From positions 1 to 10,176 of the forward strand of contig JAIRTU010000113.1 in the NCBI GenBank assembly GCA_031254735.1: 10,176 nt of DNA, given 5' to 3'. A model generated the notes under the pieces. That model did no database searches, was not told the DNA's origin, and saw only the letters and a program-made list of their open reading frames with translations. The position numbers and the translations under genes are program-made. This document shows, in pieces, positions 1 through 10,176 of the stretch. How positions within the stretch are numbered: position 1 is the first letter of the stretch; the number at the start of each line of letters is the position of its first letter. The stretch comes from Bacteroidales bacterium (GTDB lineage Bacteria; Bacteroidota; Bacteroidia; Bacteroidales; WCHB1-69).

Positions 1-371
1 CCCGACAAGACTTGCCGAATATCATAAAGGGTCGAGATCGGCTCACGCAACATTCTTTCTGCTAAGGTTTCACCCGCAATATAATGTTCCACCAAATAGA
101 GAAATTTTTTATTCCCTACAATCACCTCACCACGATCTTCGTACGATACGATATTCGGGTGTTTGAATCTCCTTAAAAATTCAATTTCCAACAAATTACC
201 ATTGGTATCAAACGACGTGTGGTGCAATGCCGCAGGATAAAATAGTTTTAGAAAACAGAGTTTCCCTTCCGCACTTTTCACGCGGTAGGTTTCAGTAGAT
301 TTCCCTTTTTTGACAAAAAATAAAATGGTGTATTTGTTGTCGAAGAGTTGATTTTTTGATAAAGTACTCAT
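1..371 (-). CDS. Ser/Thr protein kinase, N-terminal lobe (partial; C-terminus outside window)
   Basis: About 123 codons are visible, starting at the ATG at 371 and running off the left edge. The translation reads as the small lobe of a Hanks-type (eukaryote-like) protein kinase. There is a nucleotide-loop region near residues 20-32 (VKKGKSTETYRVK), a beta-3 lysine in CFLKLF (K42), an alpha-C helix EIEFLRRF with the likely salt-bridge Glu62, the hallmark HPNIV at 71-75, and a hinge-like LYLVEHYIAGETL at 91-103. Only the middle glycine of the usual GxGxxG loop is kept (G23), so the loop is degenerate, but Lys and Glu are present. The catalytic HRD and DFG motifs would lie outside the window, so activity cannot be judged. 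The start codon shares its A with the last base of the stop of the small membrane gene upstream (TAATG), which suggests translational coupling. A role in phosphorylating the neighbouring chaperone proteins is inference only. Confidence 0.85.
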   Translation of the reverse strand, partial: MSTLSKNQLFDNKYTILFFVKKGKSTETYRVKSAEGKLCFLKLFYPAALHHTSFDTNGNLLEIEFLRRFKHPNIVSYEDRGEVIVGNKKFLYLVEHYIAGETLAERMLREPISTLYDIRQVLS

Positions 372-667
372 TATTCTTCTTTTTTTGATTTTAGAAACAA
401 AGACACTACCAAACCAGCTGCAACTAATACATCAATAATGTTCCACAATTCTCTACCTAACGCAATTTTATGAAATGGCTGAAATAGAATAGCCAAAACA
501 ATATAGACGACAGACTCTATTTCTTTTTTCTGTCCATACGAGAAATAGGCAAGTATGGCAAAACCAACAAATGAGATAAAACGCACAAATTGGTAATAAC
601 CAAAAGGCATATCTGCTAAACATAGCAACATTAATATTGCCAATATTATTTTTATTGCTTTCCCCAT
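371..667 (-). CDS. Small multi-pass membrane protein (98 aa), possibly DUF6804-like
   Basis: A 98-residue, strongly hydrophobic protein. Likely membrane segments lie near residues 5-17, 25-44, 51-66 and 75-93, and the C-terminus is short and charged (KSKKEE), probably cytoplasmic. Recognisable stretches such as DMPFGYYQFVRF and LGRELWNIIDVLVAAG resemble, from memory, the small Bacteroidota membrane family annotated as DUF6804; this was not checked against a database. No catalytic motif is visible. It lies 17 bases downstream of the Hsp70 gene and overlaps the kinase start by one base, so it belongs to the same transcription unit. In this context it could be a membrane partner or anchor of the kinase/chaperone module, but the sequence does not show a function. 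Confidence 0.8.
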   Translation of the reverse strand: MGKAIKIILAILMLLCLADMPFGYYQFVRFISFVGFAILAYFSYGQKKEIESVVYIVLAILFQPFHKIALGRELWNIIDVLVAAGLVVSLFLKSKKEE

Positions 668-684
668 ATTAGTTTCTCATAAGT

Positions 685-3216
685 TTAACCTAATGTCTCT
701 GTTGGTAATTCATCTTTCGGTATCAACTTAACAAGTTCGGCTAAAACAGGGCGAACATTATTGTCACCATCTGCCACCATTTGCAAACCTTTGTTGATTA
801 ATTGCCGGGCTTTTGTTGCATCTTTCCAATGAAACTCACCAAAACATTTGTCGAAAAATTGCAATATTTGCACATCTTGCGAACCTCCCGTTACAGTATT
901 GCGAAGATTGTAATCCAATGAATGAATTTCAGAAGACAATTCTCTTGCTTCACCTTTATTTCTCTCGTGAATGACTAAATCAACTCTTTGTTTGATTTCA
1001 ATAAGCATATTATTTATTTGTGGCATATTGACTTTATCACTATCACCTAATTGTTTGATTTTTTGCACTAAATCTTCAAACTCAAAATAAGTGTCTTTCA
1101 GCTCTTGTTCCACCGCCGGCCACTCTTGTGCTTTTTCCAAAGCTTCGAGTAGCAAGAGTTCTTTGCGAAGTGCATCAAAGATTTTTAAACGACCATCGGC
1201 ACTGCCTTTTTCGTGTTCTAATTGCTTTTCGAGATTTTCCAAGCGTTCCGAAATATCGTTTGCCTGCACATTGCGAGCGGCACGCTGGGTATTACTGATT
1301 TTTTTTGCCAATTCGTCGGCAGGAATTGCTTCGGTCTGTTTCACCGTAATTTCCAACTCTTCGGTGTAATCGAGGACGGGAAAATAGGCGGAAAACTTCA
1401 TCAAACCCGATTTATCAACTTTAATTGTAATATCTACATCACTGCCTTCGGGAAGCAATGCCGGCAAACTCTCGCCTGTGATTAACACTTCAAAAATCAG
1501 ATTATTGAGGTCCGGATTGGTTTTTTGCGAAGCATATTCGCCCTCGTAAATCGGAATACGAATTACATCTTTTACCATTCCGGGACGGATTGTCTGACGA
1601 GTTTTCAGTCCGTTAGTAATGCCTACGGCGGGATAGCGGTTATTCTTTTCCAAACCTTTGACAGGCAGAATCAAGTCCTTTCCTTCGTCTGCAAAATGTT
1701 TTACAATGCAAATATGGCTCGGTAACACCTGCATACCGTCAAGTCCACCTATACCTTGCAAAATGGTAAATTGATTCGGCTCACATTCAATTCTATTTCC
1801 CTGATTATCATAGACATTGACAGCAAAAGCATTTGAGCGACCTTCCAGCAATTGCACTTCCATAAGAGTGGTTTTTTTGTCACTAATTGCTTTTTTCGGA
1901 CTGCTCCACGCACCATCAAAGCGGACAAATTCGGCAAAAAGTTCGGCCGGGTAATCGCCTGTGGATTTTTCTTTTAACACTTTAATATTAATCCATTCTT
2001 CAGTTTCTACCGACGCCGCTTCATATTTCACTTCGAGTTGCAGTTTGGTTTCATCGCGGATTTCGTCCTGAATTTCGTCCGCAACATCAATCGTAGAAGC
2101 ATACAATGCCGCACCGCAAGCAACAACGGTCATCGGGTCAATCGAAGTATCTACATTCTCTGTAATCTGCTCTTTCAACATCCGACGCAAAATGGGCGAA
2201 TGGGTAGGACCGCCTACCAAAATAAGTTTATCTAATTGGCTACTTTTCAGATTGTTGCGTTTCAATAAATTCTTTGTAATGTCGATTGCTTTCTGGAAAT
2301 GAGGAGAGAGGACGCGCTCTAAATCATCGGTTGTAATACACAAATCACTAATATCTGTTTCTTCTCCATTTTCGTCTTCACACAAATCCCCCAAATTATA
2401 ATCAACATCATATTTTTCGCTAAACGATAATTGATTTTTTGCTTTTTCTGCAAAACGCTTCAAAGCAGAACGCAATATTTGACGATTATCAGCATCATCT
2501 AAAATAAAATCAATGGCATAATGTTCTTGCATATATGGAATTATAATTTCATCAACAATCGCCTCGTCAAGGTTTTTACCGCCGAGCCAATTATCGCCTT
2601 CGGTGTCTTTAACCGACAAAATACCTTCTTCGGCTTTGATAAGAGCCGCATCGAAAGTACCGCCGCCAAAGTCAAAAACGAGCAAAAAACCGTCTTTCGA
2701 TTTGCTATCCAAGCCGTAGACAGTAGCGGCAGCAACCGGTTCTTGTAGAAGTTGTACTTGCTTGAAACCTGCGAGTTTAGCAGCTTTCATTGTCGCCTCT
2801 TTCTGCTGATTACCAAATTTTGCAGGAATAGTTATTACAACAGAAGACAAGTTTTCGTCCTGAATAAGTGATTTAAGTTTAATGAGTACTTCCGCCGAAA
2901 GTTCGTAAGACAAAAATTCCTTGCCCATATGGGTACTCTCGTAAGTAGTAGTTGTTCCCATAGTGCGTTTAAACTCAATAAAAGTGTTGGTTTTACCTTT
3001 TGTCAGCACTTTCAATGCACGAGCAAAATCACTTCTCATAACCTCTGTTGCTGTATCTCCGACGAGTACATTTAGTTTTTTGTTAAAACTCACGCACGAA
3101 GGCACAGTGTCTTTGAGTGTATCCGATTTTTTAATCACAGGAACTCCATTTTCCATTCTTGCAATGGCGGAATTAGTAGTTCCAAGGTCAATTCCATAAT
3201 CAATTTTATTACGCAT
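685..3216 (-). CDS. Divergent Hsp70-family (DnaK-like) chaperone ATPase, 843 aa
   Basis: The N-terminal ATPase domain (about 1-385) is well conserved. It has phosphate-1 IDLGTTNSAIA (9-19), the DnaK Lys70 equivalent in EFKRTMG (K83), VVITIPAKFGNQQKEAT, the QEPVAAATVYGL helix (E159), phosphate-2 FDFGGGTFDAAL with Thr187, GDNWLGGKNLDEAI (207-220), and the adenosine motif LILVGGPTHSPILRRML (331-347). ATP binding and hydrolysis are therefore expected. The rest differs from DnaK. Residues about 391-486 look like an extra beta-rich domain. About 490-627 may be the substrate-binding beta domain (RIPIYEGEY and KVDKSGLMKFSA match its landmarks). Residues 630-843 form a long charged helical tail, not a short lid. 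At 843 aa it is about 200 longer than DnaK and lacks an EEVD-like end, so it is not the housekeeping dnaK. It lies 21 bases after the GrpE-like membrane gene. The call is firm; substrates are unknown. Confidence 0.95.
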   Translation of the reverse strand: MRNKIDYGIDLGTTNSAIARMENGVPVIKKSDTLKDTVPSCVSFNKKLNVLVGDTATEVMRSDFARALKVLTKGKTNTFIEFKRTMGTTTTYESTHMGKEFLSYELSAEVLIKLKSLIQDENLSSVVITIPAKFGNQQKEATMKAAKLAGFKQVQLLQEPVAAATVYGLDSKSKDGFLLVFDFGGGTFDAALIKAEEGILSVKDTEGDNWLGGKNLDEAIVDEIIIPYMQEHYAIDFILDDADNRQILRSALKRFAEKAKNQLSFSEKYDVDYNLGDLCEDENGEETDISDLCITTDDLERVLSPHFQKAIDITKNLLKRNNLKSSQLDKLILVGGPTHSPILRRMLKEQITENVDTSIDPMTVVACGAALYASTIDVADEIQDEIRDETKLQLEVKYEAASVETEEWINIKVLKEKSTGDYPAELFAEFVRFDGAWSSPKKAISDKKTTLMEVQLLEGRSNAFAVNVYDNQGNRIECEPNQFTILQGIGGLDGMQVLPSHICIVKHFADEGKDLILPVKGLEKNNRYPAVGITNGLKTRQTIRPGMVKDVIRIPIYEGEYASQKTNPDLNNLIFEVLITGESLPALLPEGSDVDITIKVDKSGLMKFSAYFPVLDYTEELEITVKQTEAIPADELAKKISNTQRAARNVQANDISERLENLEKQLEHEKGSADGRLKIFDALRKELLLLEALEKAQEWPAVEQELKDTYFEFEDLVQKIKQLGDSDKVNMPQINNMLIEIKQRVDLVIHERNKGEARELSSEIHSLDYNLRNTVTGGSQDVQILQFFDKCFGEFHWKDATKARQLINKGLQMVADGDNNVRPVLAELVKLIPKDELPTETLG

Positions 3217-3237
3217 AATATTATTGTTTTTTATTAT

Positions 3238-4155
3238 TTATCCTACATTTAATTCTATTTGTGCGGCTTGTATCATTTTGTCTTGGTAATTCACTTGTGG
3301 TTTGATAATTTTTGAAATTATTTTCTCTCCTTCTTTCAGACTTTCATCATAAATGGAGTTTATAACAATAACTTTCAGCCCTTCGTTGTACGGCTTGCCC
3401 AAAAGTTCGGAAATTTCGTAACCATTAACGGCGAGATTATCTTTGAGTTTGCCGATTGAGCGAGTTAATTGTTTTAATCCCTTTGTATTACTATCCATTA
3501 ACGAAAGGTTACGCTCCATAAGCGTAATTTCGTCGGCAAGTTTGAGGGCGAGGGAATGGTCGGGTTTGCCGCCGTCTGCTGCCGAAACAGGAATTTCGCG
3601 GATTGTTTTCATTAGATTCCCCAAAACTTCCGCTTGCTGCGAATACGCTTTTACAAGTTTCGTTTCAATTGCCGATTTTTGTTCTTCCAACTGCGTTATC
3701 AGTTTTTTAGAATCGGTTTTTCGTTTGGATAACAAATAAAGAAACAACCCAACCGACAACAACAACAAAATAATACCACCGATAATGCCAAATCGTGATT
3801 TTTTGTCGATATTTTCCGTAACATTTGTAATTTTGTTTTCTACAGTTGTTGCCGTTTCCTTGATTTTCACATCCAAACTATCTTTCAAGCTGTTAACATT
3901 CCCAGAAACAGCATCAATCATAGATTTAGCTGAGTCGATTTTATTCTGCAGTGACTTGATTTGTCCATCGACTTTCGAAATACGATTCGAAAAATCTGTT
4001 TGCTGCTTTTTCAACTCGGCTTGTAACGTGTCAACAATTTGTTGCTGCAATACAACTTGCTGCTGCAAACCAACGATTGCAGTGCTGTCGTTGGTTTGCG
4101 ATACTACTGACAGCGAAGAAAAGAAAAAGACTATAAAAGTTGTTAACCTACTCAT
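3238..4155 (-). CDS. Signal-peptide, single-pass coiled-coil membrane protein with GrpE-like cytoplasmic part (305 aa)
   Basis: Residues 1-19 form a signal peptide (hydrophobic TFIVFFFSSLSVVS, likely cleavage before Q20). Residues about 25-118 are a Gln/Lys/Asp-rich heptad coiled coil predicted to be periplasmic. Residues about 122-143 (FGIIGGIILLLLSVGLFLYL) form a membrane helix followed by basic SKRK, so the C-terminal half should be cytoplasmic. That half starts with a second coiled coil (about 148-240) and ends in a small domain: LLGKPYNEG (251-259), then DESLKEGEKIISKIIKP (270-286) and DKMIQAAQIEL (292-302). Long helix plus small beta domain is the layout of GrpE, and the spacing resembles the GrpE beta-wing (PF...LHEAV, then LPPGTV, then RVIRPAMV). 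This is resemblance by eye, not a proven homology. Its start overlaps the stop of the J-like gene by one base (TAATG), and Hsp70 follows, which supports a nucleotide-exchange or anchoring role. Confidence 0.85.
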   Translation of the reverse strand: MSRLTTFIVFFFSSLSVVSQTNDSTAIVGLQQQVVLQQQIVDTLQAELKKQQTDFSNRISKVDGQIKSLQNKIDSAKSMIDAVSGNVNSLKDSLDVKIKETATTVENKITNVTENIDKKSRFGIIGGIILLLLSVGLFLYLLSKRKTDSKKLITQLEEQKSAIETKLVKAYSQQAEVLGNLMKTIREIPVSAADGGKPDHSLALKLADEITLMERNLSLMDSNTKGLKQLTRSIGKLKDNLAVNGYEISELLGKPYNEGLKVIVINSIYDESLKEGEKIISKIIKPQVNYQDKMIQAAQIELNVG

Positions 4156-5771
4156 TACTTTATGATTTTGATAATTTGATTTAATAAATTGCGAATTATT
4201 GTATTAATAGTTTGCTTGTCTTTTAGTTTTTCTACAAGTTTTGGTGAGTAATGATAGTAGGTTTTTATAAACCATCGTCCAAACATTGAATTTTGCAAAA
4301 CTTCATCTCTAAATTGTCGCAAAACCAGAACTTGCGGGTGTTCATAACTGCCATATGCCATTGTTGCTATAAAACAATTATCGCTACTAATTTTTCGACC
4401 ATCGTATTTCTTTAAAACATTATTTATAAAATGTTTATTTGATGTTTTTTCTTGAATCCATTCTGCCAACCGTACAAATTCTTGTTTTTGATTTGTATTG
4501 TCGCATTCTTTGATTTTTTCGATATTTGAATCAGTTAAAACGGTTTTTAATAAGTCATTTATTTTGTCCCAATCTATCGCATTTTTTTTGATCTCTGCTA
4601 CTTTGTCCCAATTAATAGATTGACCCCATCCTAAGCTTCTTGATTGTAAAACAACTTGTGCATCAATTTTCACACAGGCTTCTTCATACGCTTGTTTTAT
4701 CATTTGCATTGTCTCAATCGCTACTTTAATTTCCTTATTTTTCATCTCGTTAAGCGTCTGCAAATTATCTTTCACTCTGCCTTTAACTACACTGCCTACT
4801 GCTATGTTTTGAGCGAGCTTTACAAGGTTGGTGGTATTTGTGTGGTAATCGACCGAATTATTATCTTGTTCCTGCATTTTATTGAAATAGTCAATACTGC
4901 ATTGCAAAATTTCATTTGCCACTTTGTCGGCAATGTTTGAATAATTGAAATCTTGCTCGCCGAAAATGGTTTTTAGTTGGACAAGGTCAGCTTGGGTGTC
5001 GTTGTAAAGTTTTTTACCTGCTTCTTCACCTTTTGCGCTGTTTGCTTTGCGGGCATTTTCGGAAATGGAAATAGCTACTTTAATATTGTCGGTAAATGAT
5101 TTGGATATATTTTTGAGAAAATCAGCTCTGGCTGTAAAATTTACGTCTTTTACAATTTGTGCCAATGTGCCTATTTCAACAATACCGTCATCTGCAATTT
5201 TATTGAGAAATTGCATCTGAAGTTCTTTTTGTGAAATTTTAAAAGTAATATCGGTTACTTCTGTGATAAATCTATGACAATGTTCGCTTTCCAAAAAATA
5301 TAATTTAGAAACAACAGCATGATGCACATTTACATTTTGTTTTGTCAGATACGAACCAACAAAAAAATTGTGGAAAGCAGAAGCATTCCCCTTCGTTACT
5401 TCTCTCCAAAGGCGACATCCATCCTTTTTTGTTTTGATAATTAGGTCATTCCAAATATTCAATGCCGATTCTATATCACCCTCTTTCATCGCATCAAAAG
5501 CCGGCTCATCAGTAATTTCATTGCCTCTCCAAAACCAAAAAAGAGAATTTTCAATTTTTTCGGAATTGGTGTCGTTGCGCTCTATGGCATCGTCAATCAT
5601 TTCAACACTGCGTTGCAAGTTGTCGAGTTTCGAGAAGCTGTAATCTTCAGGTAGTTTTTCGTCTGCGGCAATATACTTTTTAAGTTTATTTGCCTGCTTT
5701 GTTTCTTCTTTGAGCGTTGCACCTGCTAAAACCCCCAAAATTCGATACGGATTATTTGTAATTGCTTGCAT
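4155..5771 (-). CDS. J-domain-like protein without HPD, with C-terminal CFI-box (538 aa)
   Basis: The N-terminus NNPYRILGVLAGATLKEETK (6-25) copies the opening of a DnaJ domain (helix I, YxxLGV, then helix II). Helix II runs into KLKKYIAADEKL (29-40), where KYHPDK would be expected, so the HPD that triggers Hsp70 ATPase is missing. Residues about 77-110 (SLFWFWRGNE..., AFDAMKEGDIESALNIW) form a TPR-like helical pair seen after this J-like start in other Bacteroidota proteins, as I recall. The middle is helical and Lys/Asn-rich with no motif I recognise. The C-terminus from C466 (CFIATMAYGSYEHPQVLVLR, then FRDE, FGRWFIKTYYHYSP) is a clear CFI-box, a roughly 50-residue C-terminal module of unknown role; a hydrophobic, basic tail follows. 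This is the first gene of the operon, with its stop overlapping the next start. The start at 5771 is chosen because the J-like motif begins at once. Cytoplasmic or membrane-peripheral location is inferred from the lack of a signal peptide. Confidence 0.85.
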   Translation of the reverse strand: MQAITNNPYRILGVLAGATLKEETKQANKLKKYIAADEKLPEDYSFSKLDNLQRSVEMIDDAIERNDTNSEKIENSLFWFWRGNEITDEPAFDAMKEGDIESALNIWNDLIIKTKKDGCRLWREVTKGNASAFHNFFVGSYLTKQNVNVHHAVVSKLYFLESEHCHRFITEVTDITFKISQKELQMQFLNKIADDGIVEIGTLAQIVKDVNFTARADFLKNISKSFTDNIKVAISISENARKANSAKGEEAGKKLYNDTQADLVQLKTIFGEQDFNYSNIADKVANEILQCSIDYFNKMQEQDNNSVDYHTNTTNLVKLAQNIAVGSVVKGRVKDNLQTLNEMKNKEIKVAIETMQMIKQAYEEACVKIDAQVVLQSRSLGWGQSINWDKVAEIKKNAIDWDKINDLLKTVLTDSNIEKIKECDNTNQKQEFVRLAEWIQEKTSNKHFINNVLKKYDGRKISSDNCFIATMAYGSYEHPQVLVLRQFRDEVLQNSMFGRWFIKTYYHYSPKLVEKLKDKQTINTIIRNLLNQIIKIIK

Positions 5772-5927
5772 TTATATTGTTGATTTTTATTATTTTGTTA
5801 CTTGATTTTAGAATACAAAAAAACGAGTCTATCGTTTGCACGATGGACAAGGACAAAGCAGACATTTTCGTTAATAAAATACTGAGTACTTTATATAAAA
5901 TTCGCATTGAAATGCCGTAAGAAGATA

Positions 5928-5943
5928 GATAGACAGATAGACA
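5928..5943. repeat. Two tandem copies of GATAGACA
   Basis: GATAGACA occurs twice without a gap (5928-5935 and 5936-5943), preceded by a truncated GATA unit at 5924-5927. On the transcribed (minus) strand this gives TGTC TATC repeats in the leader of the chaperone operon. Such short tandem units can slip during replication; whether length changes matter here is unknown. Confidence 0.6.
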
Positions 5944-6040
5944 AGACGCTAAATCACCTATATTCATTTGATTACATGCACGCATCGGAGCTTGGGTAAA
6001 ACACATGACAAAACAGTCGTCAATTCTATTATCCTCTTCC

Positions 6041-6058
6041 GATGAGGCACGCCTCATC
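6041..6058. repeat. Perfect 8-bp inverted repeat GATGAGGC-AC-GCCTCATC
   Basis: Arms GATGAGGC (6041-6048) and GCCTCATC (6051-6058) are perfectly complementary with a 2-base spacer. It stands out in AT-rich surroundings. In RNA it would form a stem of 6-7 pairs with a small loop; as DNA it could be a dimeric regulator's operator. It lies about 105 bases downstream of the candidate operon promoter. No long U-tract follows on either strand, so a rho-independent terminator is unlikely. Confidence 0.6.
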
Positions 6059-6162
6059 TTTACAATATCATTCAACCACCTTTTCCAACTGTAACTTTGG
6101 TATTTACCACGGTTAAGCCTTTCTTCTACACTCAATAAAATACACATATAATTTTGCGACCG

Positions 6163-6194
6163 TAAAGTTACTAAATTTTCACATACCAAACAAA
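6163..6194 (-). promoter_or_regulatory. Candidate sigma-ABfr-type promoter for the chaperone operon
   Basis: Read on the minus strand, TTTG (6194-6191) is followed after 20 bases by TAACTTTA (6170-6163). This matches the Bacteroidota TTTG / TAnnTTTG pattern except for the last base of the -7 box. Transcription would start near 6156 and leave a leader of roughly 385 bases before the J-like gene. No better match to the -7 box was found by eye between 5772 and 6250 on this strand. Confidence 0.5.
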
Positions 6195-6279
6195 TTCTTA
6201 TCATTATTTTTTGCTTTTTTCTACTTTTGGTTGAAAAAAGACAGATCAACAGAAATATTGTGTATCCTCGACAAATGAG

Positions 6280-6358
6280 TAGGGGGGAGGCAACATTTTT
6301 ATTGTTCTCGCACTGCGCTATCGCTTGTACGCGACTATAAAAATATACCCCACCCCTA
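6280..6358. repeat. Imperfect inverted repeat (about 23-base arms) around a CG-rich core
   Basis: The left arm 6280-6302 begins TAGGGGGG and ends ATTTTTAT. The right arm 6337-6358 begins ATAAAAAT and ends CCCCACCCCTA. Reverse-complementing the right arm aligns the two with one gap and a few mismatches; both ends (TAGGGG) and the inner ATTTTTAT block are exact. The 34-base core contains CGCACTGCGCTATCGC and GTACGCG, unusually CpG-rich here. It lies just downstream of the TonB receptor stop. It could be a REP/MITE-like element or a terminator structure without a clear U-tract. Confidence 0.5.
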
Positions 6359-6401
6359 TAAAAGCGGACAGATTGATTTTTCTTACATTAATATTTATTC
6401 C

Positions 6402-8435
6402 CTATATCGCCGCCGGCCGGAATTTCAGCGCTATGCCCGCAGTAAACCAAAATTTGGGCTGCTGCAAGCCTCCGTAGTCGAAATAGACGACATTAAAGAG
6501 GTTGTTTACTTCGGTAAAGATGTCGTACCGGGCTTCGCTCCAACAAAGACGGGCATCGACCAAAGCAAAGGGATCGAAAGGTGCGGTTTGCCCCGAAACA
6601 GGATCGACGTAGGAACCTGCACGATCATATAGCGTAAAATGCCACGAAGCTTTTAGTTTCTGAAAAAACGCCGAATGTTCCAGATTCAGGTGCAGTTTAT
6701 GGTTTAAGTAATCTAAGGCGTAGGAGGTGGTTTGAGGCGCATTTTCCTTATCCAATTTCGTAAATGTATAATTAAATCCAATTTGCCGGACGATACTCTC
6801 CGGGTTGTATTTAGACGGGTTCCACTGACATGACACTTCAGCTCCCGCCGCATTTATATGACTGTAGTTTAAACTTTTAGATACACTTGCGCCTTCGGTA
6901 TATACCCAGTCTATAATGTTTTTTCCTCTGCGGTAGAAGATATTTGCGGTTGCCGTCCACGCATTTTTTGCCAACTTGCTCCCCACTTCATACACGACGG
7001 CTTCTTCGGGTTTTAAATTGGGATTTGCCTCGTGTGTTGCGCTTTTATAGTATAAATCGGTAAAAGTAGGCAGGCGCAAAGATTGATTGACTGCGGTATA
7101 GGCAAACAGAAAAGGCGTTATTTTGTAACCGGCATTTCCGGCAAAGCAAATTTTACTTCCGTAATCATTGTTGTGATGAAAAGAAGCGCCTGCATTTACG
7201 GCAAATTTGCCGTATTCATATCCGTGCGACAATAATCCCCGGAAAAGGATTCTGTTCGCTTCATTTGTATATTGAACATTCCCTTCAAACGAAGCGTATT
7301 TAGGCGTATCCATCGGAAGCCCCAACACAGTACTGAGGATCTGTTCGTTGCGAAGTTCGGCGCTAAACGTTGTTTGCCCGATCATGCTCCGATAAGTCAG
7401 ATGGGTTTCTCCGCCGTTTATTTGTGTTTGATGATAATTGTGTCCCGTATACCAATCGGGAGCTTCGTTGCGGAACAGTTCAAAACGGTTGTAATGCATC
7501 CGGTGATAAGCAAGGGCGGACAATTTGAAATTTTTTATTTCTTTTTGCCAACGCAGACTGGCCAAGAATGTACGGGTGTAATCGAATTGGTCGGGGTATT
7601 TGAATGAATAAAATCCGTTAGCGCCACAAGGTTTGTCCTGAAAACCCGATTGAAATTCCCAATCTCCGATGCCGGAGCGGTACTTGGTAAAATTATACAG
7701 GTTGATTTTCCGGAAATCGGTGTTGTTGATGTATCCTGTGCTTTGTTGACAGGAAGCCGAAAGGAAGGAATAGCATTTTTCATTACCTGCAACGGCATTG
7801 CCAAGGGCATTGAGGTAGCCGTATTGCCCGCCTGAAAATTGAAGATTGGCTGTGTTTAGGGGTTGATTTCCGGTGGCGATATTTAATGCTCCGCCGATAG
7901 CGCCGGGCGCACTCAATCCTTGCAGGATTTCCATCCGCGAAACGGACGAAAGGTCGATTGGAATATTTAAGGAATAATGTCCCGTTTGAGGGTCGCTGAA
8001 GTTGACACCGTTGAGAAGAACTTGTGTTTGGTCGAAGCTGCCGCCGCGAACGGAGAGGTCGGCCTGAACGCCTAAGGGGCCACGTTGGCGTAAGTCAATA
8101 GAGGGGAGGGTGCGAAGCAGATCGTTGATACTCAGGGAAGGCGCTCGCTCTACTTCGGTACGGGTGACGGCAGTCAACGTTCTGACCACGTTGGGCAAAG
8201 CATCCTCCCGCTGCCCGATGACAACGATCTCATCCAGTTCCACGACAGACGGGGTGCACTCCAATGTGCCGGGAGTCTGGGCATTCGCCTTGTTTACAAC
8301 ATGAGCACTTAAAAACATTCCGGCGCACAATACGCCGATTTTCACAACCTTATGCAAGGTATTGAACACCGCATAAGGTTTACGATTCCATTTCGAGAAA
8401 CAGATATCGTACTTTTTCCTTTTTGATTTGTACAT
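6402..8435 (-). CDS. TonB-dependent outer-membrane receptor (677 aa, BtuB-like size class)
   Basis: This is an outer-membrane gated transporter driven by TonB/ExbBD. The leader is long: a basic N-terminus of about 31 residues (including FSKWNRKPYAVFNTLHK, 13-29) precedes the hydrophobic core IGVLCAGMFLSAHVV, with cleavage probable after ANA or AQ near residue 52. A TonB-box-like LDEIVVIGQR lies at 67-76. The plug spans about 77-190, with SINDLLRTLPSIDLRQRG, LSVRGGSFDQTQVLLNG (128-144) and SRMEILQGLSAPGAIGGALN. The remainder is a beta-barrel, including the conserved LRLPTFTDLYY and NPNLKPEEAVVYEVG blocks, and ends EVNNLFNVVYFDYGGLQQP...ALKFRPAAI. The terminal aromatic lies six residues from the end, slightly unusual for barrel assembly. 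Length and leader fit the cobalamin-type receptors of Bacteroidales, but no cobalamin riboswitch was seen upstream, so the substrate is left open. Confidence 0.93.
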   Translation of the reverse strand: MYKSKRKKYDICFSKWNRKPYAVFNTLHKVVKIGVLCAGMFLSAHVVNKANAQTPGTLECTPSVVELDEIVVIGQREDALPNVVRTLTAVTRTEVERAPSLSINDLLRTLPSIDLRQRGPLGVQADLSVRGGSFDQTQVLLNGVNFSDPQTGHYSLNIPIDLSSVSRMEILQGLSAPGAIGGALNIATGNQPLNTANLQFSGGQYGYLNALGNAVAGNEKCYSFLSASCQQSTGYINNTDFRKINLYNFTKYRSGIGDWEFQSGFQDKPCGANGFYSFKYPDQFDYTRTFLASLRWQKEIKNFKLSALAYHRMHYNRFELFRNEAPDWYTGHNYHQTQINGGETHLTYRSMIGQTTFSAELRNEQILSTVLGLPMDTPKYASFEGNVQYTNEANRILFRGLLSHGYEYGKFAVNAGASFHHNNDYGSKICFAGNAGYKITPFLFAYTAVNQSLRLPTFTDLYYKSATHEANPNLKPEEAVVYEVGSKLAKNAWTATANIFYRRGKNIIDWVYTEGASVSKSLNYSHINAAGAEVSCQWNPSKYNPESIVRQIGFNYTFTKLDKENAPQTTSYALDYLNHKLHLNLEHSAFFQKLKASWHFTLYDRAGSYVDPVSGQTAPFDPFALVDARLCWSEARYDIFTEVNNLFNVVYFDYGGLQQPKFWFTAGIALKFRPAAI

Positions 8436-8457
8436 AAAATTTTAATGTTAAATGAAT

Positions 8458-8478
8458 AAAAAAACCGGATTGCTCCGG
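8458..8478 (-). terminator. Terminator-like hairpin in the TonB receptor leader
   Basis: On the minus strand CCGGA-GCAA-TCCGG is followed directly by seven T. The stem is a perfect 5 bp capped by a GNRA-type tetraloop, then a U-tract, the form of a short intrinsic terminator. It lies between the receptor's promoter and its start codon, not after a gene. An alternative overlapping pairing, TTGC/GCAA around CGGA, would exclude part of this stem. It may act as an attenuator or as a 5' protective stem-loop. Confidence 0.5.
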
Positions 8479-8491
8479 CAACATATCAAAG

Positions 8492-8525
8492 CAAAGATAG
8501 CATAAAATCCTCTATTATACACAAA
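8492..8525 (-). promoter_or_regulatory. Promoter of the TonB receptor gene
   Basis: The minus strand carries a perfect -7 box TATCTTTG (8499-8492) and a TTTG -33 element (8525-8522). The 22-base spacer is slightly longer than the usual 19-21. Transcription would start near 8486, giving a leader of about 50 bases that contains the terminator-like hairpin. Confidence 0.65.
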
Positions 8526-8616
8526 CGGACAAAAATCGCAACAATTTTCCGGTCATCACGAATACCGGAATCCGGCATTTTCATCCGGTCAGGTTTAATT
8601 ACATTTGCATGTATAG

Positions 8617-8646
8617 TTGTGATTTGCTTTCGAAATTGTATCTTTG
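8617..8646 (+). promoter_or_regulatory. Promoter of the DUF4468/flavin reductase gene
   Basis: A perfect -7 box TATCTTTG lies at 8639-8646, with a weaker -33 element (TTG at 8617-8619) 19 bases upstream. Transcription would begin near 8652, about 75 bases before the chosen ATG. It is divergent from the receptor promoter. Confidence 0.6.
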
Positions 8647-8728
8647 ACACGATTATTGCGGCATTTACTGATTTAATATATTGCAACTGAAAAAAATTGT
8701 CTTTTTATTCATTTTTAAATATGTCGGT

Positions 8729-10027
8729 ATGAGAAAAATAATTCGTTGTTTAGTGACAGTAATGGCTTGTATGCCTGTTTTGTTATTTGCTCAGGATGAT
8801 GATAGTAAATATCTGGCGGGAGCCGTACCTGAGGTAGATGGAAAAGTTGTTTTCACAAAAGAATTTGATCTGAAGGGAGCAGATCGGGATGCGATTTACG
8901 ATCGAATCTACGGATGGCTCGATAAACGTATGAAAGCGAACGAAAACGACAGTCGCATTTCGTATACAAAAAAGGAAGAAGGCCAGATTGTTGCACAGGG
9001 AGAAGAATATCTGGTATTCAGCAGTAACGCCTTTTCGCTGGACCGATCCATGATGAGTTATAATCTGGTTGTCCTTTGCAAGCCGGGCAAATGTGAAATG
9101 AGCGTAGAGCGTATCCGTTACAGCTATGAAGATAGTCGTTACACAGCGGAAGAACAGATTTCCGATAAGATGGCTCTCAACAAGAAAAAAACAAGTATTT
9201 ACCGTGGCAACAGGAGATTTCGTGTGAAAACGATTGATTATATAGAGGATCTGTTTGAAAATGCGGGAACGGTTTTTGGTCTTCAGCATGTAGCGGCTGT
9301 TACTTCGCCGGCACAAGCGCAGCAAACGGCAATTACGCCCCCCGTAACAGAACCCGCTTTATCAACCGAGGTAACCGTTCAATCCGTTCAGACGGTTGAA
9401 AAGCCGGCTCCGGCGCCGACCCTCGCAACTTCCGTATCGATTCCGGAAGAAACGAATGTTTCCGTACCACCGGCAAATATTGCCGTAACCCCGGCTTCAT
9501 CTTCCGGTAAGCCGGTTTCTTTTGAAGGTTACAAACCTTTGCCACCGGATAAAATCCCCGGAAACATCATAAAAATGTTGAATGAAGACTGGATGCTGAT
9601 CACTGCCGGAACGGATGCAAAATTCAATATGATGACGGCAAGCTGGGGCGGATTAGGCGTGCTTTACGGTAAACCGACGGCTACCTGCTTCATCAATCCC
9701 ACGCGATATACTTATCAACTGATGGAAACAAACGAAACATACACGCTGACATTTTATACCGAAGCATACCGGGAGGCATTGCGGTATTGCGGTTCGAACA
9801 GCGGACGCGATCAGGATAAAGTGAAAGGATCCGGGTTAACGCCCATAACGACTCCTTCCGGAAGCAAGGCCTTTTCCGAAGCATGGCTCATCATCGAATG
9901 TCGTAAACTTGTAGGCCAATCGCTCAGTCATGATGCCCTTTTCGACGAGAAAGTAAAGAATGAATGGGTCGGAAAACAACTCCATAAAATGTATATCGGC
10001 GAAATCATCAATGTGTGGGTGAAGTAA
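8729..10027 (+). CDS. Exported DUF4468 - flavin reductase (flavoredoxin-like) fusion protein
   Basis: The start chosen is the ATG at 8729 (432 aa), because a clean signal peptide follows (MRKIIRCLVTVMACMPVLLF, cleavage before Q22). A TTG at 8681 would add 16 residues and is less likely. Residues about 30-185 match the DUF4468 (TBP-like fold) pattern: VPEVDGKVVFTKEFDLKG, IYDRIYGWLDKRMK, and VERIRYSYED. Residues about 190-262 form a Pro/Thr/Ala-rich linker. Residues about 265-432 match the flavoredoxin/flavin reductase family: WMLITAGTDAKFNMMTASWG (288-307), GVLYGKPTATCFINPTRYTY, LRYCGSNSGRDQDKV (351-365), ECRKL (390-394) and the closing HKMYIGEIINVWVK. Flavin binding is expected from the family. 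Export to the periplasm is odd for this usually cytosolic fold. It stands alone, divergent from the TonB receptor and ahead of ettA. The domain calls are firm; its redox partner is unknown. Confidence 0.9.
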   Translation: MRKIIRCLVTVMACMPVLLFAQDDDSKYLAGAVPEVDGKVVFTKEFDLKGADRDAIYDRIYGWLDKRMKANENDSRISYTKKEEGQIVAQGEEYLVFSSNAFSLDRSMMSYNLVVLCKPGKCEMSVERIRYSYEDSRYTAEEQISDKMALNKKKTSIYRGNRRFRVKTIDYIEDLFENAGTVFGLQHVAAVTSPAQAQQTAITPPVTEPALSTEVTVQSVQTVEKPAPAPTLATSVSIPEETNVSVPPANIAVTPASSSGKPVSFEGYKPLPPDKIPGNIIKMLNEDWMLITAGTDAKFNMMTASWGGLGVLYGKPTATCFINPTRYTYQLMETNETYTLTFYTEAYREALRYCGSNSGRDQDKVKGSGLTPITTPSGSKAFSEAWLIIECRKLVGQSLSHDALFDEKVKNEWVGKQLHKMYIGEIINVWVK

Positions 10028-10044
10028 GAAAATACACAGACTTT

Positions 10045-10075
10045 TTTGTATTCCTTCCGGCATACATTATCTTTG
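10045..10075 (+). promoter_or_regulatory. Promoter of ettA
   Basis: TTTG (10045-10048), a 19-base spacer and TATCTTTG (10068-10075) give a full match to the Bacteroidota consensus, about 30 bases before the ettA ATG. The AT-rich inverted repeat AATACA/TGTATT (10031-10052) just after the previous stop overlaps the -33 element; it is too weak to call as a terminator. Confidence 0.7.
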
Positions 10076-10105
10076 TCATCAATAAAATTATAGCACGCAT
10101 AAATT

Positions 10106-10176
10106 ATGGCAGACGACAAAAAAATTATCTTTTCGATGGTGGGGGTCAGTAAAATATATCCTCCTCAAAAACAAGT
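10106..10176 (+). CDS. ettA: Energy-dependent translational throttle protein EttA (ABC-F), N-terminal fragment
   Basis: Only the first 23-24 codons are present, and the gene continues past the right edge. The translation MADDKKIIFSMVGVSKIYPP followed by QKQ matches the distinctive EttA N-terminus (compare E. coli, which begins MAQFVYTMHRVGKVVPPKR). EttA is a cytosolic ABC-F ATPase that binds the ribosomal E site and gates entry into elongation according to energy state. The Walker A motif would come just after the window, so the call rests on the N-terminus alone, but that stretch is characteristic of the family in Bacteroidota. A dedicated promoter lies directly upstream, so it is probably transcribed independently of the flavin reductase fusion gene. 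Confidence 0.85.
   Translation, partial: MADDKKIIFSMVGVSKIYPPQKQ

Follow-up and report, generated by a model that had tools for sequence, protein, structure and literature searches.

DnaK, DnaJ and GrpE act with ClpB as a bichaperone disaggregase, and we know of no bacterial GrpE other than a soluble protein. Three prokaryotic Hsp70 types, DnaK, HscA and HscC, are recognized in excerpts of PMC8215388, which also name DnaK-DnaJ-GrpE with ClpB. An HSP70/GrpE/DnaJ theme is included in predicted conflict systems centred on GAP1-N2 GTPases, according to excerpts of eLife 2020;9:e52696 (PMC7159879), and DnaJ-mediated phage sensing by bNACHT25 is reported in excerpts of PMC12169576. Here we describe a five-gene cassette from a Bacteroidales bacterium (GCA_031254735.1, contig JAIRTU010000113.1, positions 1 to 10,176; this whole stretch of 10,176 nucleotides is referred to as the window). 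Its genes encode a J-like protein, a GrpE-like membrane-spanning protein, a long divergent Hsp70, a small membrane protein and a fusion of a protein kinase with an AAA+ domain. The cassette, most of which lies in the window, is a single mobile accessory unit, scattered through Bacteroidota. On the balance of comparative sequence evidence, we consider it a candidate membrane-tethered Hsp70 machine that somewhat more probably than otherwise protects its host against phages or other attack on the envelope. A phrase search of the open-licence literature found no paper on a membrane GrpE; in the same literature, which excludes subscription papers and preprints, no recognised description of the cassette was found, nor were the names CFI-box-CTERM and DUF6804.

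Organization and spread of the cassette

The five close-set genes lie on the minus strand of the window in the order J-like protein (538 amino acids (aa); 4155..5771), GrpE-like protein (305 aa; 3238..4155), Hsp70 (843 aa; 685..3216), DUF6804 membrane protein (98 aa; 371..667) and kinase-AAA+ fusion (3..371), the last being cut by the window edge so that only its N-terminal 123 aa are present. Successive joints are a 1-base overlap, a 21-base gap, a 17-base gap and a 1-base overlap. These open reading frame (ORF) coordinates agree with the original prediction, made from the window alone, of five same-strand genes joined by one-base overlaps or gaps of about 20 bases.

Related loci (L numbers) were obtained by scanning contigs with aligned members of the 305-aa family, and the best 80 of 135, mostly Bacteroidota by title, were analyzed. 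Because loci were selected via the GrpE-like protein, all of them necessarily contain it. A greedy longest-ORF script supplied the ORF calls, and some loci are metagenome bins. Hsp70 was scored as following the GrpE-like gene within three ORFs and 600 bases, and the J-like gene as preceding it within three ORFs and 400 bases. Among the loci with room, an Hsp70 gene follows in 78/78 and a J-like gene precedes in 76/78; both exceptions, L017 and L064, have a J-like gene farther upstream, with tail-bearing ORFs intervening. Of the 65 loci with 5 kb or more of downstream sequence, 62 have the kinase gene; DUF6804 is present in 38/65 loci with room.

Co-occurrence was assessed in a phylum sample of 148 genomes centred on G001 (locus L021, Flavobacterium ammonificans). 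Four queries were run separately (GrpE-like domain, J-like protein, C-terminal half of Hsp70, kinase protein), and all matched the same 3/148 genomes. G001, the centre, and G007 (L031) were previously known, and G060 is the sole new strong case; the GrpE-like search gave one additional weak partial match (G071, 5.5e-7). The cassette is rare, with occurrences in 2/147 further phylum-sample genomes and in 2/149 genomes of a genus sample, where G013 (L044) was previously known and G297 is new. The conserved order and linkage that the original prediction had proposed to test are borne out for these core genes. Chance assembly of unrelated genes, some of them misread via weak motifs, would be in keeping with an unconfirmed J domain and with the occurrence of DUF6804 outside the cassette in 36/148 phylum genomes; for the four core genes it is refuted by their order and co-occurrence, and we regard this explanation as extremely improbable. 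DUF6804 itself was rejected as a strict cassette member, being so widespread and having its sole copy in G001 about 15 kb from the cassette.

The four core proteins have pairwise distances that correlate with one another at r 0.69-0.90 (27 genomes). Their correlation with distances of the housekeeping DnaK of the same genomes is weaker (r 0.29-0.33, values reached by 0-6/2000 permutations), and weighs against a purely mobile history, since it suggests that some cassette descent is vertical. Beside this, horizontal transfer is indicated by four genome pairs whose cassette Hsp70s are 9-10% apart and whose DnaK proteins are 27-29% apart. No viral contig was matched in searches with the Hsp70 C-terminus or the cytosolic GrpE-like domain, and no phage record was matched by the Hsp70 C-terminus. 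The full 305-aa protein matched one viral contig (L001), in the coiled coil at aa 39-121 only, and this match stands outside the 80-locus counts. Three cassettes (L040, L076 and L078) lie on contigs shorter than 10 kb in Oceanicaulis, Chloroherpeton and Clostridia bins, which may reflect misbinning or wider transfer.

The GrpE-like, Hsp70 and J-like proteins

The 305-aa protein begins with a signal-peptide-like N-terminus (aa 1-20; 4096..4155, minus strand, as are all cassette features), predicted from sequence. A predicted periplasmic coiled coil (aa 24-112; 3820..4086) forms one long helix in the AlphaFold2 (AF2) model, and is followed by a transmembrane helix (aa 124-142; 3730..3786; hydropathy 2.74). 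A cytosolic GrpE-like domain comprises the remainder (aa 143-305; 3238..3729). The coiled coil would be periplasmic because a signal-like N-terminus is combined with a single membrane helix. Among 76 GrpE-like homologues, 69 have a hydrophobic N-terminus and all 76 the inner membrane helix. These and all motif counts below were taken from length-filtered ORFs (J-like 480-760, GrpE-like 280-345, Hsp70 825-870 and kinase 575-610 aa), split or odd copies being excluded. The membrane-spanning, coiled-coil architecture of the original prediction is thereby upheld. The family includes 2274 proteins at expectation values (E) up to 1e-3, some perhaps recruited via the coiled coil. One named record and one source name in it carry the database label 'septum formation initiator', which may be owed to the combination of coiled coil and membrane helix.

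The AF2 model (mean pLDDT 75, pTM 0.47) runs from a long helix through the membrane helix and a second long helix to a pair of short helices and finally small strands, where it is least certain (pLDDT 50-62 at aa 251-280). In a Foldseek search of the Protein Data Bank (PDB), the top nine matches were GrpE chains from six entries; the best had an E of 7.3e-4 and was the sole one below 1e-3. The next matches were BAG domains, which likewise act on Hsp70. One homologue (L053) exceeds the Pfam cut-off for GrpE (PF01025), with 29.4 bits against 25.8 and profile positions 7-164 of 165 aligned to its cytosolic part. In the genome search the GrpE scores were 26.5 bits for the L053 protein and 22.4 bits for the L072 protein.

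Several results weigh against this assignment. The Foldseek GrpE matches have TM-scores of 0.18-0.48 and root-mean-square deviations of 17-27 Å, and the VIA-align list for the same model holds BAG and other helical bundles and no GrpE. When the GrpE-like profile was aligned to GrpE with hhalign, the probability was 13.5% (P 0.0021), in the expected register. Only 2/49 cassette GrpE-like proteins reach the GrpE model at E 1e-3, one of them above the Pfam cut-off; in the other 47/49 genomes the cassette protein was not detected at that threshold. With a limit of E 0.1, PF01025 fails to match the window protein and matches 11/68 relatives (best 0.007), fewer than DivIC matches (23). Taken together, the cytosolic domain is likely a divergent GrpE carried on a transmembrane protein, as judged from profiles and the model. 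What stands of the exchange factor originally proposed is the GrpE identity of the best PDB matches and the one homologue above cut-off; the window protein itself gave no GrpE match.

The identity of the Hsp70 is clearer. Its ATPase domain (aa 5-397; 2026..3204), delimited with PF00012 and other profile matches, has a PF00012 E of 1.9e-71 over aa 8-405. The ATP-site motifs GIDLGTTNS and GGGTFD are each retained in 67/68 homologues. From aa 497 onward the protein was aligned by hhalign to 29 housekeeping DnaK C-termini with 163 columns in register (P 8e-4; probability 24-25%, from shallow alignments), suggesting a putative substrate-binding beta domain at about aa 497-640 (1297..1728). Because this alignment starts at the linker end of DnaK, a conserved extra region about 100 aa long (aa 397-496; 1729..2028) is left as the remainder between the ATPase and substrate-binding parts. 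The conserved C-terminal region (about aa 641-843; 688..1296) may serve as the lid.

A plain second DnaK operon was considered and rejected: the cassette Hsp70 scores 242 bits, against a cut-off of 823 for the DnaK model, and the housekeeping genes are separate. The Hsp70 scores far below the cut-offs of both the DnaK and HscA models. A separate strong GrpE gene is present in 49/49 cassette genomes and a separate full-length DnaK-like match in 42/44, in accord with the original prediction that this is not the housekeeping copy. In L034 the Hsp70 is split across two ORFs. Three cassettes (L023, L032 and L073) contain a second Hsp70-like gene (690-871 aa) beside the normal one; that of L023 may be inactive, since its GIDLGTTN site reads AIYLNSSF.

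Of 7995 candidates scored, 851 belong to the family of the J-like protein at E up to 1e-3. Its N-terminal domain (aa 1-84; 5520..5771) has an NPYRILG start and a WF motif and lacks HPD. In the AF2 model the helices of this domain (aa 8-12, 20-36, 56-65 and 69-76; pLDDT about 83-95) occur in an order that would fit a J domain. Local hhalign against J-domains covered 23 columns of helices I and II (P 3e-4, 39.8%; mismatched pairs at most 1.2%), and the global mode gave 1.0%. Searches of the full protein were less favourable: the window protein has no J-domain model match and, in Pfam at E up to 1, matches only PPR_2. DnaJ is not among the 25 best of 83 families matched by 45 members, and no J-domain appears in the Foldseek and VIA-align lists for the full model, which were filled by its helical body (TPR-like, designed and other helical proteins). 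What speaks for the J protein of the original prediction is a J-compatible helix order and the short local profile alignment; the window protein itself gave no J-domain match.

Two observations count against an ordinary Hsp70 cycle. HPD is present in 0/74 J-like homologues (first 100 aa); the protein is therefore not classed as a J-domain protein (PF00226), and the standard trigger of the Hsp70 ATPase is missing. The second concerns a DnaK loop whose sequence is EGKR, EGRR or EGSR in 29/29 housekeeping copies and TLKD in at least 43/68 cassette Hsp70s. We take the EGKR-type loop to contact GrpE, so the TLKD loop suggests that the Hsp70 and GrpE-like pair has diverged from the standard set. With HPD absent and TLKD in place, neither standard J action nor standard GrpE action can be assumed.

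The C-terminus of the J-like protein is variable. In the window it is a CFI-box-CTERM domain (aa 466-534; 4170..4376; NF041770 E 3.6e-25). Across 74 homologues, the tail is a CFI box in 23, one or more membrane helices in 41 and neither in 10; a membrane association of the CFI box is suggested by its replacing membrane helices in otherwise similar proteins. ORFs with a different tail type lie downstream of the J-like gene at L017:9237-10001 and L064:2485-3338, and two J-like genes at L033:693-4691 have starts that resemble each other (83% over 473 aa) and different tails. These arrangements look like cassette exchange of tails; duplication and decay could also produce them. Extra-tail ORFs and tandem J-like genes also resemble the leftover cassettes of polymorphic systems. 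At L074:15742-18555 and in protein P0107, BspA-type leucine-rich repeats are fused to the J-like body.

Remaining genes, genomic setting and proposed function

The truncated kinase of the window matches the Pfam protein kinase at E 2.6e-4, below the Pfam cut-off because the gene is cut at the window edge. Intact relatives are about 595 aa long, with one classical-type AAA domain; in two of them the kinase E values are 1.5e-39 and 2.1e-38 and those of AAA 7.5e-38 and 1.2e-33. The eukaryote-like kinase of the original prediction is therefore sound as to its kinase part, and the last gene really encodes a kinase-AAA+ fusion. Walker A is present in 60/61 homologues. The catalytic loop reads HNE in 31/61, HND in 24/61 and otherwise in 6/61, and the DFG-like motif is mostly retained, being degenerate or undetected in about ten of 61. 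Given glutamate at the catalytic position in 31/61 and the degraded DFG, many of these proteins may be pseudokinases or catalytically weak. These data bear on a signalling cassette, in which Hsp70 and its co-chaperones would serve only in assembling or holding the kinase-AAA+ protein, and an envelope signal would lead to phosphorylation as output. A largely kept DFG-like motif and a catalytic loop of the form HN[ED] in 55/61 would suit it; the possible pseudokinases, and an AAA+ site better retained than the kinase site, speak against it, and we judge it unlikely.

The small multi-pass membrane protein of the original prediction is DUF6804 (PF20619 E 7.7e-35), with four hydrophobic stretches at a low threshold. 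Beyond that prediction, most complete operons also contain a TerB-like gene and some a lipoprotein gene. The TerB-like gene is found in 49 of the 61 loci carrying the kinase gene, by a model derived from 25 ORFs in these loci themselves, and one of three TerB-like proteins scanned passed the Pfam TerB cut-off. The lipoprotein gene lies between Hsp70 and kinase in some loci; in each of 11 copies, inspection by eye shows a hydrophobic N-terminus and then a cysteine. In 7 loci the J tail carries this lipoprotein domain as a fusion, placed after a membrane helix (E 2.3e-18 to 4.6e-10).

Defence genes adjoin several cassettes. On the Haliscomenobacter plasmid pHALHY02 (L164:371-23617), SIR2/WD40 genes, the cassette and a BREX cluster follow in a row, with brxL 13 bases away. 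Type I restriction genes neighbour the cassettes of L026, L020, L044 and L075; type IIG genes neighbour L012, an AbiLi-like gene L052 and a partial DrmD-like gene L081. Ten neighbours were hand-picked from 18 motif-bearing ORFs, of which 8/10, from 7 loci, match PADLOC at 1e-60 and those of L027 and L054 are unmatched. In a bulk scan, 285 PADLOC models were matched by 130 flanking proteins versus 78 by 126 proteins beside housekeeping dnaK, these being counts of redundant models and not of proteins. Flanking proteins were the nearest two on each side with a minimum length of 170 aa, 197 in all, and the 130 scanned came from 44 loci; the control took up to four nearest per side in 18/20 dnaK regions (126/130 proteins), the script having located no dnaK in the other two. 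Pfam families among the 130 flanking proteins include integrases (3), relaxases (2) and resolvases (2), as seen among the best 25 of 112 families. Patchy spread, mobility and adjoining defence genes are general traits of defence systems, and the cassette has all three. The original prediction had asked whether the genes sit in variable islands near defence genes; the patchy spread, the plasmid copy beside BREX and the restriction, AbiLi-like and DrmD-like neighbours point that way.

Other findings weigh against a defensive role. The flank contrast is flattering, because the control dnaK region is conserved and expected to be poor in defence genes. Searching PADLOC-DB 2.0.0 at E up to 1 gave no match for the window Hsp70, J-like protein or DUF6804, and the other window cassette proteins had only weak kinase and coiled-coil matches, the kinase being scanned as a cut fragment. 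No recognised toxin domain was present in the parts scanned (window proteins and added genes of relatives). Upstream of the cassette, the window contains a TonB-dependent receptor gene and a DUF4468/flavin-reductase gene by Pfam, and neither of these two genes has a defence domain in the Pfam scan. The latter encodes a 448-aa protein (8681-10027) in which a DUF4468 domain is fused with a flavin-reductase-like domain.

The strongest competitor is envelope quality control, in which a membrane Hsp70 with AAA+ would extract or refold misfolded membrane proteins under gating by the kinase, the cassette being accessory since the need would be niche-specific. Its part list (Hsp70, J-like, GrpE-like and AAA+) is that of a disaggregase, and the J-like tails and the GrpE-like protein are membrane linked. 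E. coli HscC and its tail-anchored J proteins also act at the membrane, according to excerpts of PMC8215388. A very patchy spread (2/147), defence neighbours and tail exchange are atypical of repair functions, and we hold this alternative to be rather doubtful. Patchy spread, plasmid carriage and defence neighbours lead us to lean toward a conflict or defence role over envelope stress sensing.

For a defensive cassette we propose the following mechanism. The periplasmic coiled coil of the GrpE-like protein, joined in some loci by the lipoprotein or the J-tail domain, would sense a disturbed envelope, and the signal would alter nucleotide exchange on Hsp70 via the cytosolic GrpE-like domain. 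The J-like protein would recruit Hsp70 to its client at the membrane. Under the control of Hsp70 and the kinase domain, which would hold or free it, the AAA+ ring would then extract or unfold the target. DUF6804 or the variable J tail is a possible effector. A bolder version, possible though less likely than not, makes the cassette an inner-membrane immune sensor gated by chaperones, in which the transmembrane GrpE-like protein would relay a periplasmic signal to the Hsp70 cycle, the cycle would trigger the kinase-AAA+ motor, and exchanged J tails would retune recognition or attack. If this sensor reading were true, the cassette would represent a dedicated Hsp70-GrpE-J-AAA+ set for defence, with an exchange factor as a transmembrane receptor. 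Carried on a transmembrane coiled-coil protein, a GrpE-like domain would let an outside signal directly set the Hsp70 nucleotide cycle, and the cassette couples this Hsp70 set with a kinase-AAA+ motor. If the cassette is defensive, chaperone-gated immunity becomes testable.

Comparison with known systems

Like the DnaK-DnaJ-GrpE/ClpB disaggregase, the cassette combines Hsp70, J-like, GrpE-like and AAA+ parts; it differs in having a membrane tether, no HPD and a single classical-type AAA domain that is fused to a kinase. With bNACHT25 it would share a J protein in phage sensing, although the excerpts of PMC12169576 concern DnaJ and an NLR-related protein and no dedicated Hsp70 cassette. E. coli HscC with DjlB and DjlC, as described in excerpts of PMC8215388, is comparable in its non-housekeeping Hsp70, sporadic spread, tail-anchored J partners and probable membrane role. 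HscC is thought to be GrpE-independent in the same excerpts, whereas the cassette unit includes a GrpE-like gene, though the loci were selected by it. The cassette Hsp70 further differs in its 843 aa and extra region, and is set apart from HscC by description, no HscC model being among its profile matches.

A three-gene relative occurs on the conjugative plasmid pSDM007 of Pseudomonas hygromyciniae (L165:8340-13320) and encodes a TPR protein, a 117-aa protein and a long Hsp70. The C-terminal half of this Hsp70, including the extra region, is homologous to that of the cassette (98.9%, E 1.2e-17). The soluble 117-aa protein aligns weakly to the GrpE-like domain (17.2%, P 0.0014), has no Pfam match and may be a mini-GrpE. 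In contrast to the cassette, a TPR protein replaces the J-like protein and no kinase-AAA+ is annotated adjacent; the J-like profile gave no match to the TPR protein, in which an NPFQLL stretch is visible by eye.

The closest described counterpart is provided by the GAP1-N2 systems (PMC7159879, in excerpts), which share an Hsp70, a GrpE, a DnaJ- or TPR-bearing partner, a predicted conflict setting and membrane-linked variable parts. Their theme is built on GTPases and GAP1 and, per these excerpts, is found mainly in Actinobacteria and Firmicutes. No GTPase or GAP1 genes were present among the window genes, the added genes of relatives or the 25 best of 112 flank families. The cassette instead adds kinase-AAA+ and TerB-like genes, neither of which is noted for the GAP1-N2 theme in the excerpted text, and its GrpE-like protein spans the membrane.

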